Of a stretch of 64,000 nt of DNA, positions 9,862 to 64,000 are shown piece by piece. A model generated the notes under the pieces. The model ran no database searches. It worked only from the letters and a program-made list of their open reading frames with translations, and had not been told where the DNA came from. The stretch spans positions 496,001 to 560,000 of the forward strand of contig NZ_CP097800.1 of NCBI RefSeq assembly GCF_000612545.2, in the 5' to 3' direction. The DNA is from Streptomyces sp. PCS3-D2 (GTDB lineage Bacteria > Actinomycetota > Actinomycetes > Streptomycetales > Streptomycetaceae). The translations under genes were made by a program, and so were the position numbers. Position 1 is the stretch's first letter. Each line of letters opens with the position of its first letter.

Positions 9862-11082
9862 TCACCCGGGCCGCTCCGCCCGGCCGCGCCCGCGGGTCCA
9901 AGCCCGCAGCCGGCTGCGCAGCGGTCCGGTGCGCCGACTGCGGGTGTGCCGGTCGAGTTCCTCCAGCAGGCGCTGCGAGCGCTTCTCCACGCCCAGCTCG
10001 TCGAGAACCCGGTCGATCTCGGTGAGCAGCGCTCCGCGCAACTGCCAGTGCCCGGGGTCCGCACGTGCCGAGGCCAGCAGATGGTCCGCGAGCCGGTCGC
10101 GGTGTGCGCGGGCCACCGCCAGCTCCCCGGTCAGGCGGGCCTCGGCCTCCTCCGCGTTGGCACTCACCTGGGCGGTGATCAGCTGGGCGAAGCTCTCGAC
10201 GGCGGTCGCGGTGTGGCGCAGCACCTCGCGCAGCGCGGCGGCGGTCCCCGGCTCGAAGAGCGGGCCGTCCGGGCGGACCTTGGCGAGGTCGGTCACCGTC
10301 CGGCAGGCCACGCGGAGCACCACCGCGCAGATCTCCAGGGTGTCCAGGCCGGTCCGCAGCACCAGCCGGAAGAGCAGGCCCTCCTTGACCCGCGGATTGA
10401 GCCGGAGGCTGTCCTCCGCCTGCCGCAGGGCGGCGTCGACCTGCGCGATGTCGTTGTCGAGGCGGCGCGCCTCGTGCAGCCGGGCCGCGGCCTGTTCGAC
10501 CCTGCCCGGGCCCGTGGGCTCCTCGCCGAGGTGGTGCAGCAGGCGGCTCATGCGCCCGGCCAGATCGGTGATCGCGGTGCCCGCCGGCCCGATCCAGAGG
10601 GGAGGCGCCAGCAGGAGGTTGACGAGCAGCCCGACCACCGCGCCGATGAGGGTTTCCAGCACCCGGTCCCAGGCGGTGTCCGCCACCTGGGTGACGCCGA
10701 GGACGAGCATGGCGCTGATCGCGACCTCGGGGACGAACTCGTCGACCCGCACCAGGTGGCCCACCACCAGCGAGGCCAAGATCAGCAGGCCCAGACTCCA
10801 CCAGGTGAGACCGACCAGCGCGCTGAAGCCGATGGCGATCAGGACGCCGACGACCACCGAGTTGACCCGGCGGATGCTGGTGGTCAACGTGGAGTAGAGC
10901 GTGACCTGGACGACCAGCAGGGCCGTCAGCGGGGCGGTCAGCGGGTTCGGCTCGCTGCTCAGGCGGAGGGCCACGACGTAGCTGATGACGGCCGCGGCGG
11001 TGGAGCGCAGGGCCTGGACGGCGACCGGCTCGCGGCGGCGCCGTGCGACACGGGTGGCGATGCTGCTGATCGTTTCCGACAT
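9862..11082 (-). CDS. FUSC/ArAE-type integral membrane protein
   Basis: 406 residues from ATG 11082 (MSETISSIATRV). About six hydrophobic helices fill residues 30-170, including NPLTAPLTALLVVQVTLYST and SLGLLILASLVVGHLVRVDE. A long, charged, helical cytoplasmic region follows, with coiled-coil-like heptads such as VEQAAARLHEARRLDNDIAQ. This is the layout of FUSC (fusaric acid resistance/aromatic acid exporter-like) proteins, where it forms one half of the usual double repeat. The natural solute is unknown. GGGAAG lies upstream of the chosen start; a longer frame reaching 11229 lacks one. Confidence 0.85.
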   Translation of the reverse strand: MSETISSIATRVARRRREPVAVQALRSTAAAVISYVVALRLSSEPNPLTAPLTALLVVQVTLYSTLTTSIRRVNSVVVGVLIAIGFSALVGLTWWSLGLLILASLVVGHLVRVDEFVPEVAISAMLVLGVTQVADTAWDRVLETLIGAVVGLLVNLLLAPPLWIGPAGTAITDLAGRMSRLLHHLGEEPTGPGRVEQAAARLHEARRLDNDIAQVDAALRQAEDSLRLNPRVKEGLLFRLVLRTGLDTLEICAVVLRVACRTVTDLAKVRPDGPLFEPGTAAALREVLRHTATAVESFAQLITAQVSANAEEAEARLTGELAVARAHRDRLADHLLASARADPGHWQLRGALLTEIDRVLDELGVEKRSQRLLEELDRHTRSRRTGPLRSRLRAWTRGRGRAERPG

Positions 11083-13536: not shown

Positions 13537-14439
13537 ATGGCGAGCCCCACGATGGCCGTCCGGCGGATCAGGCAGCGTGCCGGCGAGGCGGTGTTCCTGC
13601 GCGTCGCCGGTCCCGACGGAGCCCGCAACCGGCGGCGCATCCACCAGACGCCCGGACCCCGCTGGTTCGCACCGGACCGGCCCGTGCGGCGGGTCCACGC
13701 GGACGCGTCGATGTTCGTCGGCGGTCTTGCCGCGCTGCTGCTCCAGTCCCTGCACCCGGTCGCGATGGCCGCGGTCGCGGCCCACTCCGGATACCGCGGC
13801 GATCCTTGGGGGCGCCTGCACCGGACCAGCACCTTCCTGGCGGTCACCACCTTCGGCACCAGTGCCGACGCCGAGGCGGCGGTGGACCGTGTCCGGGCGG
13901 TGCACGCACGTGTCCGGGGCCGGACGCCCGACGGTGTGGCGTACCGGGCGGACGACCCGGAGCTGCTGGGCTGGGTGCACACCGCCGAGGCGTACTGCTT
14001 CCTGAAAGCCCACCAGCGTTATGGCAGGCATCCCTTGGATCCGGCGGGCTGCGACGGGTACCTCGCCGACACGGCGCGGGTCGCTCGGGCGCTGGGCGCG
14101 GACCGGCCGCCGCAGGACGTTCGGGAACTCGCCCTGCGGATGGCGCGGTACCGGCCCTGCCTGAGGCCGACGGACGCGTCCCGGGACACCGCCCGCTTCC
14201 TGCTGGCCGATCCGCCGCTGCCGGGGGCCGCCCGGCTGCCGTACGCGCTGCTCGCGGCGGCGGCCGTGGACCTGCTGCCGTCCTGGGCGAGGGCGGCTGT
14301 CACCGCCGGTTCGGGTTCCGCGGCGGAACGGGTGCCCGGCGCGGCGGCCCGTGCGGGCGGGCACGCCGTGACCCGGGCGATCCGCTGGGCCCTGCCCCCG
14401 CCGCCCGCGCGCACGGACCGGTCGTCCGCACCGGGGTGA
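13537..14439 (+). CDS. MpaB-like oxygenase (DUF2236 family)
   Basis: 300 residues from ATG 13537. Diagnostic segments of the MpaB/DUF2236 family of putative haem b oxygenases (latex-clearing protein relatives) are visible: the SLHPVAMAAVAAHSGYRGDP block with a candidate haem-ligating His, RTSTFLAVTTFGTSADAEAA, and LLGWVHTAEAYCFLKAHQRY with another conserved His. The substrate is unknown. CATACT lies 7 nt before ATG 13537 and there is no Shine-Dalgarno sequence, so translation may be leaderless. An in-frame ATG at 13498 is possible. Confidence 0.85.
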   Translation: MASPTMAVRRIRQRAGEAVFLRVAGPDGARNRRRIHQTPGPRWFAPDRPVRRVHADASMFVGGLAALLLQSLHPVAMAAVAAHSGYRGDPWGRLHRTSTFLAVTTFGTSADAEAAVDRVRAVHARVRGRTPDGVAYRADDPELLGWVHTAEAYCFLKAHQRYGRHPLDPAGCDGYLADTARVARALGADRPPQDVRELALRMARYRPCLRPTDASRDTARFLLADPPLPGAARLPYALLAAAAVDLLPSWARAAVTAGSGSAAERVPGAAARAGGHAVTRAIRWALPPPPARTDRSSAPG

Positions 14440-14606
14440 TCCCGGGTGGTCCCGGCCCCGGCACGTGCGGCGGCTCGTCGGGGCTCCGGTGAGCGTACGT
14501 GCACGATCGATCGCGGCCGACGGGGTGGGAGACTGGGTGGGAAACTGGAACGGCCACCGATACGTTGGCCATCCACCACGAGTCCCCACCGGAGAAGTGA
14601 CGACCG

Positions 14607-15005
14607 ATGACCCTCCAGGAAGGCCGGCGGGTCCGGCTGGCGGCAGACCTCAGGCTGACCGGGACGGTCGTGACGGCCGAGGGCCACTCCGCGGACGGGG
14701 ACGTGGTCGCCGGCGCGCTCTTCCTCGGGTCGGGTGCCCAGGGCATCGTCGAACGGGTGGACCCGCCCCGGGATCGGGAGCAGAGCCACGAGGTGCGCGA
14801 GTACGAGCGGCTCACGGCACTCCTGAACGACTTCGGCCACCAGATGCCCCCGGCGAGCAGGCGGCAGCTGGAGGAGCAGGTGGCCTCCCTCGAACCGGCG
14901 TGGACCGCCCACCGGGAGCACGGGCCCCGACGGACGGTCCGGGTCCGCCTCGACAACGGCTTCGTCCTCGACGACGCGCGGGCGGAGCTCTTCCTCCCCC
15001 TCTGA
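14607..15005 (+). CDS. Hypothetical protein, 132 residues
   Basis: MTLQEGRRVRLAADLRLTGT begins a beta-rich, SH3/KOW-like first half (GIVERVDPP). A helical segment EYERLTALLNDFGHQMPPAS follows, then a final strand pair VRVRLDNGFVLDDARAELFL. The beta segments at the two ends could form one barrel interrupted by a helical insert. GGAG is 13 nt upstream of ATG 14607. I do not recognise the family. Confidence 0.65.
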   Translation: MTLQEGRRVRLAADLRLTGTVVTAEGHSADGDVVAGALFLGSGAQGIVERVDPPRDREQSHEVREYERLTALLNDFGHQMPPASRRQLEEQVASLEPAWTAHREHGPRRTVRVRLDNGFVLDDARAELFLPL

Positions 15006-15235
15006 GTCCCCCTCTGACAGGGCCGGGGCCGCACTGCCGGGCCCGGCAGCCGTCCCGGGCAGGCAGACCGAATGACGGTGCTGTGGTGAACCGGCTGGGC
15101 CAACGGAGTGAGTAAAGGCTTCATCCGCGAAAGTTCCGCTCTTCCCCAAGGAAGTATCCGTTTTGGGTAAAGAGTCCTGGTGGCGCGGCTCTCCGCCCTC
15201 CCCTGTGCCGATGCGCTCCTCGGAGGAACCGAACC

Positions 15236-61434: not shown

Positions 61435-62706
61435 TCACGAGGGGCCGAGCCGGCACAGCGCGGCGGCGGTCAGCGCGCGGACTGCGGCCGGCAGGGCGGT
61501 CCGGGCGTCCGGGGCGAAGTCCGGCGCGTGGTTGGCGGGGAGGGCCGCCATCTTCTCCGCCGCGGTCGAGCCCGCTGCGCGGGACCAGGCGGCCGGGCCG
61601 GCCGTGCCCAGCATCCAGTAGCCGAGCCGGATGCCCCGCTCGCCGTGCACCTCCGCCCCGGCATCGCCGAAGAGGGCGAAGTCCTCCGTGGCGAGCGAGG
61701 GCGGCCACATCGCCACCCGCTCCGCCCCGAACTCGGCGGCGTGCGCCTCCCGTACGGCCGCCGTCAGCGCCGGATCCGGGTGGGTGACGGGGGAGGTGGA
61801 GATCCGGACGATCTCCGGATCCCGCGGGCAGGCCGCTGCGGCGCACTCGGCGCGCACGATCCGCTCCACGGCCGCGGCGGCCCGGGCCAGCGAGGCCTCG
61901 CTCACCGCCCGCACCGTGACGGCCAGTTCCGCGCGGTCCGGGATGACGTTGGCCCGCTCCCCCGCCCGGAAGGAGCCCACGGTCACCGCCACCTGGTCGG
62001 CCGGAGCGGCCTCCCGTGCCACCACCGCCTGGAGCCGGGTCACCACGTGCGCCGCCGCCACCACCGGGTCCACGGCGAGGTGCGGAGCCCCGGCGTGCCC
62101 GCCGCGGCCGTGCACCACCACCCGGAGCGTGACACTGCCCGCCGTCATGGGCCCGTATCCGTGGGCGACCATGCCGGCCGGCAGCGGCGCCGCGTGCTGG
62201 GCCAGGACGTCGTCGGGCCGGCCGCACCGCCGGTAGAGGCCGTCGGCCAGCATCGCCCGGGCCCCCTCCAGCGTCTCCTCGGCCGGCTGCCCGGCCACGA
62301 CGAGGGTGCCGCGCCAGGCCCGGGGAGTCCGGGCGAGCAGCAGCGCCGTGCCCGCGGCCGCCGCGAGGTGCAGGTCGTGCCCGCAGGCGTGCGCCGCCTC
62401 CCCGCGGGCCGCGTACGGCAGTCCGGTCGTCTCCCGGACCGGCAGGGCGTCGAGTTCGGCCCGCAGCAGGACCGTGGGACCGTCCCCGTTGCGCAGCACG
62501 CCGGCCACACCGTGCCCGCCGATGCCGCGCGTGGTCGTGTACCCGGCGGACTCCAGCCTGCCGGCGAAGCGGTCCGCCGTGCGCCGCTCCTCCCCCGACA
62601 GCTCCGGATCGTGGTGCAGTTCCAGGTACCAGGCCGTCAGGTCGCGCAGGTGCGCCCCGAGTCGGCTGAGCGGTGCGGCGGGCGATTCGGGTGCGTGGCC
62701 GGTCAT
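61435..62706 (-). CDS. M20-family amidohydrolase/peptidase
   Basis: 423 residues of the M20D type (hippurate/indole-acetyl amino acid hydrolase-like). ELHHDPELSGEERRTADRFA, HACGHDLHLAAAAGTALLLA (metal-binding His and Asp), VAGQPAEETLEGARAMLADG (catalytic Glu), the dimerisation-domain segment GRGGHAGAPHLAVDPVVAAA and the final metal-site ATEDFALFG are all in order. It removes N-acyl groups from amino acids or small peptides. It starts at ATG 62706 and diverges from the RiPP precursor gene across a dyad, so co-regulation and a processing role are possible but unproven. Confidence 0.88.
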   Translation of the reverse strand: MTGHAPESPAAPLSRLGAHLRDLTAWYLELHHDPELSGEERRTADRFAGRLESAGYTTTRGIGGHGVAGVLRNGDGPTVLLRAELDALPVRETTGLPYAARGEAAHACGHDLHLAAAAGTALLLARTPRAWRGTLVVAGQPAEETLEGARAMLADGLYRRCGRPDDVLAQHAAPLPAGMVAHGYGPMTAGSVTLRVVVHGRGGHAGAPHLAVDPVVAAAHVVTRLQAVVAREAAPADQVAVTVGSFRAGERANVIPDRAELAVTVRAVSEASLARAAAAVERIVRAECAAAACPRDPEIVRISTSPVTHPDPALTAAVREAHAAEFGAERVAMWPPSLATEDFALFGDAGAEVHGERGIRLGYWMLGTAGPAAWSRAAGSTAAEKMAALPANHAPDFAPDARTALPAAVRALTAAALCRLGPS

Positions 62707-62748: not shown

Positions 62749-62782
62749 GCGCTGACACCTCGTGACAGCGGAGTGTCAGCGC
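62749..62782. promoter_or_regulatory. Perfect 10-bp-arm inverted repeat upstream of the RiPP precursor
   Basis: GCGCTGACAC (62749-62758) and GTGTCAGCGC (62773-62782) are perfectly complementary across a 14-base spacer, and the spacer itself contains a further TGACAG. The element lies between the divergent M20 and precursor genes, 92 bp before the precursor start. Candidate operator for both. Confidence 0.65.
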
Positions 62783-62874: not shown

Positions 62875-63048
62875 ATGCAGAAGTCGCCCCTCGCCTCGCT
62901 CGCGGACGAGATCCTGGAGCTGGAGTCCGAGACGTTCGAGATCTCCGACTACTCGGACGCCAGCGAGGTCGTGCTCGCCGGTTCCACGAGCTGCAGCTCC
63001 ACCTCGACCTGCTCGTCGACCACCAGCACCACCTCCTGCTCCGCCTGA
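62875..63048 (+). CDS. RiPP precursor peptide with all-Ser/Thr/Cys core
   Basis: 57 residues, preceded by GAAGGAG 6 nt before ATG 62875. The acidic leader (MQKSPLASLADEILELESET, then FEISDYSDASEVVLAG to residue 36) has the amphipathic LELE and FEI elements bound by RiPP recognition domains. Residues 37-56 are exclusively Ser, Thr or Cys, with Cys at 40, 46 and 55, followed by a terminal Ala. Such a core is an ideal substrate for azoline formation and dehydration. A YcaO cyclodehydratase gene lies 76 bp beyond, convergent. It resembles thiazolylpeptide-type and linear azole peptide precursors, but I cannot match it to a named product. Leader cleavage is most likely near Ala35-Gly36. Confidence 0.9.
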   Translation: MQKSPLASLADEILELESETFEISDYSDASEVVLAGSTSCSSTSTCSSTTSTTSCSA

Positions 63049-63069
63049 CCCGTCGGGCCGCGGACGCGG

Positions 63070-63109
63070 CGATGCCCCGGCCCCCGCATCTGCGGGGGCC
63101 GGGGCATCG
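63070..63109. terminator. Long perfect hairpin between precursor and YcaO gene
   Basis: Arms 63070-63088 and 63091-63109 pair perfectly over 19 bp (core GATGCCCCGGCCCCCGCA and its complement) around a 2-base loop. It lies 21 bp after the precursor stop and 15 bp before the YcaO stop codon, so it can end both transcripts. Confidence 0.85.
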
Positions 63110-63124
63110 GCCGTTGCGGGCCTC

Positions 63125-64000
63125 CTACGGGAAGGGGTGCGGGATCCTGCGGACGTCGGCGTCCGCGAGGTCGGCCGTGCGCATCCCCGCCCGCCGGGGC
63201 GCGGTGCGCAGCCGTGGCAGGTGGGGGGCGCGCTGCCGGGCCCAGCCGAAGTCGATCGGCAGCAGCCCGGGCACCACGGCGCAGACCGTGTGCAGGCCGA
63301 TCCGCCGCTGCTCCGGGGTGGTCTGGTCGACGGTGACGACGTCGTGTCCGGCGCGTACCAGCTCGTCCACGACGCACCGCAGATCGTCGCGGAGGTCTCC
63401 GGTGCGGGGCCGTCCGTACTCCGTCCAGGACCGGTAGAGCTCGTCCATCGTGCGTACGGCGAGCGGTTCCCGGTAGGGGCGGACGTGCTCCGCCATCGCG
63501 GGCAGCCCGTACAGCTGGGCGTGGTCCTTCAGGTGCAGCACCTTGTCGAAGTCGGCGGCCATCTCCTCCAGTTCGCCGCGCCGCTCCTCGACCTGGCGGG
63601 GCAGGTGCGGGATGTAGGTGAGCACCTCCGACAGGGCGGCCTCCACCGCCGCCGCCGGGTCGAGCGCGGCGCCCGCGCCGAAGGAGTACAGCCCGGGGCC
63701 GCCGTCGCGGCGCACCGCGAGCCCGGTGACGACCGGGACGGCCAGGTCGACGCGGTTGTCGAAGGCGTGCACGTCGTAACCCTGGAGCGCGGCCCGGTCG
63801 GCCATCGCGCGCACGGCGGTCCCCGGCACGCTCGCCAGGTCGATCTCGGTCAGCCGCAGTCCGCCGTACCAGGCGAGCAGGAACGCGTCCCGCTCCACGA
63901 GTTCGAGCAGGGCGCCGAGCAGCGCCTCTTCCTCGCAGCTGCCGATGGCACAGCCGTTGGAGCACTCGAAGACGAAGTTGTCGGCGGCGACGCCGGCGCT
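63125..64000 (-). CDS. YcaO-domain azoline-forming cyclodehydratase, C-terminal part (runs off right edge)
   Basis: The visible 291 codons start at the window edge with SAGVAADNFVFECSNGCAIG and continue SCEEEALLGALLELVERDAF, LLAWYGGLRL. ECSNG-A-G, EA--AL-E--ERDA and the GAGAALDPAAAVEAALSEVL block are YcaO ATP-binding signatures. The C-terminus ends IPHPFP, a PxPxP motif required in azoline-forming YcaO enzymes. It should convert Cys, Ser or Thr of the neighbouring precursor to thiazolines and oxazolines using ATP. Its N-terminus and any partner (E1-like/RRE protein, dehydrogenase, dehydratase) lie beyond the window. Confidence 0.92.
   Translation of the reverse strand, partial: SAGVAADNFVFECSNGCAIGSCEEEALLGALLELVERDAFLLAWYGGLRLTEIDLASVPGTAVRAMADRAALQGYDVHAFDNRVDLAVPVVTGLAVRRDGGPGLYSFGAGAALDPAAAVEAALSEVLTYIPHLPRQVEERRGELEEMAADFDKVLHLKDHAQLYGLPAMAEHVRPYREPLAVRTMDELYRSWTEYGRPRTGDLRDDLRCVVDELVRAGHDVVTVDQTTPEQRRIGLHTVCAVVPGLLPIDFGWARQRAPHLPRLRTAPRRAGMRTADLADADVRRIPHPFP

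Follow-up and report, generated by a model that had tools for sequence, protein, structure and literature searches.

Goadsporin from Streptomyces sp. TP-A0584 is matured in order, GodD/E installing the azoles first and GodF then introducing dehydroalanine (Dha), with LazF replacing GodG; the azoles at T5 and S15 are described as required (PMC5303826). Its pathway combines a YcaO cyclodehydratase, a dehydrogenase and a split LanB (GodF/GodG) to yield azoles and Dha derived from Ser, Thr and Cys, and as described it has one named cyclodehydratase, a 19-aa mixed core, an acetyltransferase and a peptidase-domain ABC transporter; Cox et al. give it without a [4+2] protein (PMC4603692). The coryneazolisins, types 1 and 2, are a bioinformatic group of the same survey (Cox et al. 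2015, PMC4603692), described as having near-identical precursors, with long Ser/Thr/Cys runs and a core interrupted by Ile, together with lanthipeptide-like dehydratases, two D proteins (of which one is fused and the other discrete) and no [4+2] protein. In thiopeptide pathways such as those of thiomuracin, thiocillin and berninamycin, an F-type protein accompanies the fused cyclodehydratase and the LanB is split. The dehydrazoles, including carnazolamide, unite azoles and dehydrated Ser within one peptide by means of a LanM-type DUF4135 dehydratase and an NHLP leader (PMC10676384).

The locus described here lies at the right-hand edge of a 64,000-nt window (contig C1:496001–560000) of a 7.63-Mb Streptomyces genome in 3 contigs, where a RiPP cluster of ten genes and a regulator crosses the window edge, with a precursor gene and a YcaO gene at one end. 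The cluster resembles that of goadsporin in its YcaO cyclodehydratase, dehydrogenase and split LanB but differs in having two fused cyclodehydratases, an F-type protein, a near-pure Ser/Thr/Cys core and an M50 protease. It likewise resembles the coryneazolisins, compared by description, except that both of its D proteins are fused, each carrying TIGR03882 and TIGR03604. With the thiopeptides it shares the fused cyclodehydratase and F-type protein, the split LanB and the precursor family names, but a second LanB-C-like gene, for a pyridine synthase, was not found in the window genome. In contrast to the dehydrazoles, its dehydratase is of the LanB type and its leader is short and acidic.

The precursor ORF (window 62875–63048, + strand) is preceded directly by GAAGGAG 5′ of its ATG and encodes 57 aa, MQKSPLASLADEILELESETFEISDYSDASEVVLAGSTSCSSTSTCSSTTSTTSCSA. 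The initial annotation had singled out a 57-residue peptide in which residues 37–56 are all Ser, Thr or Cys, with Cys–Cys spacings of 6 and 9, next to a YcaO enzyme with a PxPxP end, and each of these features was confirmed. We infer a leader of approximately 36 aa followed by the core STSCSSTSTCSSTTSTTSCSA. The peptide matches two curated families that NCBI names as thiazolylpeptide, TIGR03892 (49.5 bits, cut-off 25) and NF033400 (41 bits, cut-off 30); given these scores and the recurrence of the core beside the same enzymes in many other genomes (132 precursor copies, 93 distinct DNA sequences, in the loci compared), it is not a chance ORF. The earlier statement that the peptide could not be matched to a named product thus stands as far as the product is concerned, but the precursor itself already belongs to a thiopeptide-named family (TIGR03892). 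An M20-family amidohydrolase gene immediately upstream (window 61435–62706, − strand) is regarded as a neighbour.

Reading rightward past the edge recovered every further class of RiPP gene that had been proposed as a check: a split LanB, a SagB dehydrogenase, an E1-like/leader-binding protein, a protease and a transporter. All of these genes lie on the − strand. The first, D1 (C1:559125–561062; its 3′ part occupies window positions 63125–64000 and it continues to C1:561062), encodes a 645-aa fused cyclodehydratase with an E1-like part and a YcaO domain (TIGR03604, 343 bits, cut-off 219; TIGR03882, 83 bits; PF02624, 274 bits), has an N-terminus approximately 145 residues shorter than that of TruD and ends in PHPFP, the PxPxP motif. 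It is followed by an ABC permease (C1:561059–561814) with a weak match to SagH (48 bits, cut-off 450), an ABC ATPase (C1:561811–562779) and an M50-type membrane protease (C1:562873–563973; NF041824, 95 bits, cut-off 300; PF02163, 34.3 bits, cut-off 27.2). Adjacent genes encode the separate LanB proteins predicted to carry out elimination, LanB-C (C1:563970–565055; PF14028, 142.5 bits), and glutamylation, LanB-N (C1:565043–567799; PF04738, 140.5 bits), the latter matching the lantibiotic dehydratase domain protein of PDB 6ec7 (E value 5.8e-35). The SagB dehydrogenase (C1:567813–569363; TIGR03605, 142 bits) precedes a second fused cyclodehydratase, D2 (C1:569404–571341; TIGR03604, 308 bits, cut-off 219, with TIGR03882), and an F protein (C1:571331–573583) that passes the TIGR03882 cut-off, has a weaker YcaO match and scores 72 bits against TIGR03693, far under its cut-off of 561.9. 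D1 and D2 are therefore both SagD-type YcaOs over the TIGR03604 cut-off, with a TIGR03892 precursor adjoining, and together with the further genes past the edge this supports the original RiPP assignment. Neither a LanC nor an N-acetyltransferase gene was seen among the cluster genes scanned; the two LanC-like matches of the genome (G000:C1:6668558–6669592 and 6627576–6627992; L220 and L221), approximately 6 Mb from the cluster, are a sign of separate lanthipeptide-type loci.

The DNA flanking the precursor contains two further elements. Between the convergent precursor and D1 genes lies a perfect 18-bp inverted repeat (window 63070–63109), likely a two-way terminator of both; stems of at least 10 bp occur 3′ of the precursor in 47/90 loci, that of the window included, and are absent from the close relative L044. 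Upstream of the precursor, a direct repeat, GTGACAG-N4-GTGTCAG (window 62762–62779, + strand), resembles a SARP box, heptamer direct repeats of this kind being typical SARP sites. A strict [GC]TG[AT]CAG heptamer pair, 11 bp apart, precedes 25 of 81 distinct precursor genes (reverse orientation, 2/81), compared with a background rate of 0.0015 per 220 bases (29 pairs in 4.2 Mb of strand from 102 loci, a set that overlaps the 81 upstream regions). Beyond the F gene is a SARP regulator (C1:573681 to about 575438, − strand) with BTAD, Trans_reg_C and NB-ARC domains. SARP matches were found in 91 of 102 loci, in 82 of them on the same strand as F and no more than 1.2 kb away; they were missing from L074 and L075, which are other clusters, from L110, L136 and L148, where F is near the locus edge, and from L206–L211.

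Motifs and identities were scored in 26 of 28 Streptomyces loci (25 for D2), L046 (short contig) and L051 (unclear LanB-C/D1) being left out; in L051 (G171), LanB-C falls into two overlapping matches and D1 is partial, and the copy looks damaged or misassembled. SNGxxxG and PxPxP are present in all 26 D1 and all 25 D2 proteins, and ExxERY in 26/26 and 22/25, respectively; a stricter E-x-VERD pattern, too strict for these YcaOs, matched 17/26 and 17/25. With PxPxP in every D1 orthologue examined (26/26) and a score over the cut-off of the SagD azoline-forming family, the annotated YcaO family was upheld. The F protein lacks SNGxxxG, PxPxP and ExxERY in 25/26 loci; in the remaining one, L036 (G145), the gene call runs F and D2 together as one 1519-residue frame, a possible fusion. 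LanB-C carries Y-PE-[KR]YGG and HMTNNRL in 26/26 and P[HY][VL]R-R in 25/26.

In a tree of 35 YcaO domains, none from a characterised YcaO, most D1 and D2 sequences form two clades, each including rows from outside the genus. The D1 rows of family f17 stand outside the D1 clade, the fork holding all YcaOs of this cluster family has support of 90/98, and the rows of L064, L210 and L205 are long. The YcaOs encoded at other TIGR03892 loci (L056–L058, L060, L061 and L074) are all separate from these D1 and D2 proteins. Within a locus, D1 and D2 share 44 % identity (25 loci) as against 67 % among orthologues, indicating that their duplication predates the spread of the cluster within Streptomyces. 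In both clades the Sphaerimonospora locus is nested next to S. griseus, which suggests transfer.

A profile search of 296 Streptomyces genomes found TIGR03892 in 62, LanB-C (E value ≤1e-60) in 49 and both in 46, so that the precursor accompanies the cluster eliminase in 46/49 genomes, in line with the co-occurrence that the initial annotation had made a test of its reading. LanB-C without a TIGR03892 precursor was found in G088, G147 and G151, and among the 16 genomes with TIGR03892 only, G196 has a precursor of the window type and no LanB-C match. A contig search, from which the best 80 of 179 relatives were kept and which is skewed to close relatives, put the window genome near S. virginiae, the two LanB-C proteins being 93 % identical. 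Of the 62 loci of at least 19 kb in this set of the best 80 of 179, L113 gave no permease match; the other 61 hold all nine enzyme and transport genes, with identical order and orientation throughout (61/61). The fetched DNA includes a precursor in 64 of the 80 loci (again the best 80 of 179), and in each of these 64 it converges with D1, so the convergent layout, at first thought unusual for such loci, is instead common in this cluster family. From the 16 precursor-less loci of the best 80 of 179, six genomes were searched and a precursor was found in five; the Sphaerimonospora genome searched yielded no precursor, its contig stopping beside D1. A separate clade (L052, L053 and L073) has the precursor upstream of F; the same variant core is also encoded in the L135, L153 and L154 genomes, there outside the fetched stretch.

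Across a class-wide sample of 394 genomes, LanB-C (E value ≤1e-30) was found in 19, eight of them from outside the genus and from two families. The f17 loci (L202–L204) have D1, D2 and tandem precursors, three or four per locus. The f19 loci L206–L209 also have three or four precursors each, with a single D protein and no clear ABC pair in the stretch examined. In L205, also of f19, both D proteins are present and a gene upstream of F specifies a core of 31 residues, STSCTSSTTSSTSCGSSCSSTSCCSSCSSAA. The cores from outside the genus are again nearly pure Ser/Thr/Cys, with few Gly, Ala and Phe. No precursor was seen in the in-genus outlier L210 (G088). Separately, six Streptomyces genomes (L056–L060 and L075) carry another precursor family with an identical core, GASSGSIGTSSSSSSTCSAC, as tandem pairs beside YcaO-like genes; these precursors represent another conserved peptide of predicted thiazolyl type.

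The core is nearly frozen. Among the 26 Streptomyces loci, mean pairwise identity is 0.913 for the core and 0.927 for 25 leader residues, against 0.573–0.725 for the other proteins (23 to 26 sequences each, outlier lengths removed); the leader thus equals the core in conservation, and leader recognition could explain the former but not the latter. We counted core variants with a pattern restricted to S/T/C/A (123 copies, 85 distinct DNA sequences) and with a free core (132 copies, 93 distinct sequences, 92 of which have a 21-residue core), both counts covering genes with a recognisable leader and leaving out the divergent L062/L211; because some genomes are present twice, copy counts are not genome counts and we report distinct DNA sequences. 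Both counts returned the same alternatives: Cys at position 1, Cys at 2, Ser or Thr at 4, Ser at 10, Ala at 12 (one sequence), Cys at 14 and Cys or Thr at 20. Eight of these nine alternatives remain within Ser/Thr/Cys (92 distinct genes), compared with 28 % of single-base replacements (P=0.0003, phylogeny ignored). Position 1 is Cys in 5/85 distinct sequences and Cys4 is replaced by Ser or Thr in 34/85; Cys is found at some time at positions 1, 2, 4, 10, 14, 19 and 20, and Ser3 and Ser18 are invariant. Eight of the ten Ser-dominated positions use both TCN and AGY codons (85 sequences), the exceptions being position 1 (TCN) and position 15 (AGC); codon 15 (window 63025–63027) is AGC in 85/85 distinct genes, a possible nucleotide-level constraint. 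Adjoining pairs of precursors occur in L070/L099, apparently one contig, and in L101, and the L070/L099 pair differs at core position 4 (Thr versus Cys). Overall, the near-frozen core suggests a conserved target or role, such as a signal or a ribosome-type target, and not an arms race.

The product of the cluster is very probably a small peptide with extensive modification, and the reading that we prefer, at a probability of roughly 70 %, is a linear, multiply azole-containing, dehydrated peptide made by goadsporin-like logic with two cyclodehydratases. The SARP would turn on the precursor gene via the heptamer repeats, and the F protein would bind the acidic leader and offer the core to D1 and D2, which would convert selected Cys, Ser and Thr residues into azolines for oxidation to azoles by SagB. 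LanB-N would then glutamylate Ser and Thr using Glu-tRNA, and LanB-C would eliminate the glutamate to give Dha and Dhb, before the membrane M50-type protease removed the leader and the ABC pair exported the product. Core positions 1, 2, 4, 10, 14, 19 and 20 are predicted azoles since Cys is found there, and Ser3 and Ser18, being invariant and immediately preceding Cys-tolerant positions, are predicted Dha residues.

The strongest competitor is a true thiopeptide, in which the [4+2] pyridine macrocycle would be formed either by the single LanB-C, besides its elimination of glutamate, or by an enzyme that escaped detection. In favour of this reading are the thiazolylpeptide families of the precursor (TIGR03892 and NF033400), the TIGR03891 score of LanB-C (80.7 bits, over the cut-off) and its best PDB match, the pyridine synthase TbtD (E value 5.5e-10). 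Against the pyridine-synthase model NF045556, LanB-C scores about 101 bits (positions 1–276), under the cut-off of 325, which divergent synthases could escape; this is more than either of two proteins of the control locus L064 (43 and 69 bits), all three being far under 325. L064 encodes, from position 9928 onward, a precursor with the core SCTTSSVSTSSSSSS, presumably berninamycin-like, in a cluster near the gene for ribosomal protein S10. It has two separate proteins, one eliminase-like (P0001) and a second that matches NF045556 positions 184–351, whereas PF14028 and NF045556 each have one match in the whole window genome, both to LanB-C. PF14028 alone is not a safe test, as the L064 genome also has only one match to it. 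A further L064 frame (13899–15152), considered as a second LanB-C, gave no match and appears to be a spurious ORF.

Three LanB-C motifs match PDB 5ehk, which we take to be the class I dehydratase MibB, weakly but in order, and the same motifs are found in the eliminase-like P0001. We equate the His of HMTNNRL in LanB-C with H961 of NisB. That residue is reported to belong to the glutamate elimination site (PMC4341554). One LanB-C-like gene in the genome, with elimination motifs, favours a linear goadsporin-like peptide over a thiopeptide macrocycle, as does the occurrence of Cys as the first core residue in 5/85 sequences, which a LanB would not convert to Dha (assuming cleavage after LAG). 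Genome papers do list thiopeptide-labelled clusters in species that carry the locus: a ‘Thiopeptide, LAP’ cluster, entered as not reported, in S. lavendulae CCM 3239 (PMC8510958) and a ‘LAP, thiopeptide’ cluster with 4 % to fluostatins M–Q in S. albidoflavus (PMC11678301). Both species carry the locus among the best 80 of 179 relatives, making it a candidate counterpart of these entries. On balance the thiopeptide reading appears unlikely, and we favour a linear product over a macrocycle at about three or four to one.

A membrane-active cytolysin resembling streptolysin S, with contiguous heterocycles, is considerably less probable still. Cox et al. (PMC4603692) describe cytolysins as having a Gly and, after it, an unbroken run of over ten heterocyclisable residues, as here, and the permease weakly matches SagH, but the split LanB, F-type protein and second cyclodehydratase are set against this, and a fused D with an F-type partner resembles heterocycloanthracin and thiopeptide clusters. 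A class I lanthipeptide with thioether rings, to which the LanB-type domains, the core Cys residues and the genome's two LanC-like matches might point, is hardly credible, as those matches lie far outside the cluster, Cys4 is so often Ser or Thr, and two YcaOs and SagB would be left unexplained. Dmxorosin, a class I lanthipeptide, was excluded as the product. A literature search (further papers cited: PMC9576775 and PMC11855644) returned no paper with core or leader fragments, nor any published product or function; subscription journals may contain a description.

We regard the predicted azole/dehydro peptide cluster, as judged from its genes and their conservation, as a real, widespread and unusually conserved RiPP cluster, its eliminase and precursor being carried by approximately one-sixth of the Streptomyces genomes sampled (46/296). 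Its 20 contiguous modifiable residues and two cyclodehydratases would make it a clean system for the division between azole and dehydro sites. More tentatively, and with the balance of likelihood against it, the loci may constitute an actinomycete RiPP family of their own, whose Ser/Thr/Cys cores, free of interruptions, are converted into near-fully modified peptides by one or two fused cyclodehydratases together with a split LanB; the Streptomyces core would then be nearly frozen because its product has a conserved physiological function, for instance that of a shared signal, and is not a diversifying weapon. For a bacteriocin-like peptide, one would not expect the core to stay almost invariant where the neighbouring enzymes diverge, and this points to conservation of its target or role.
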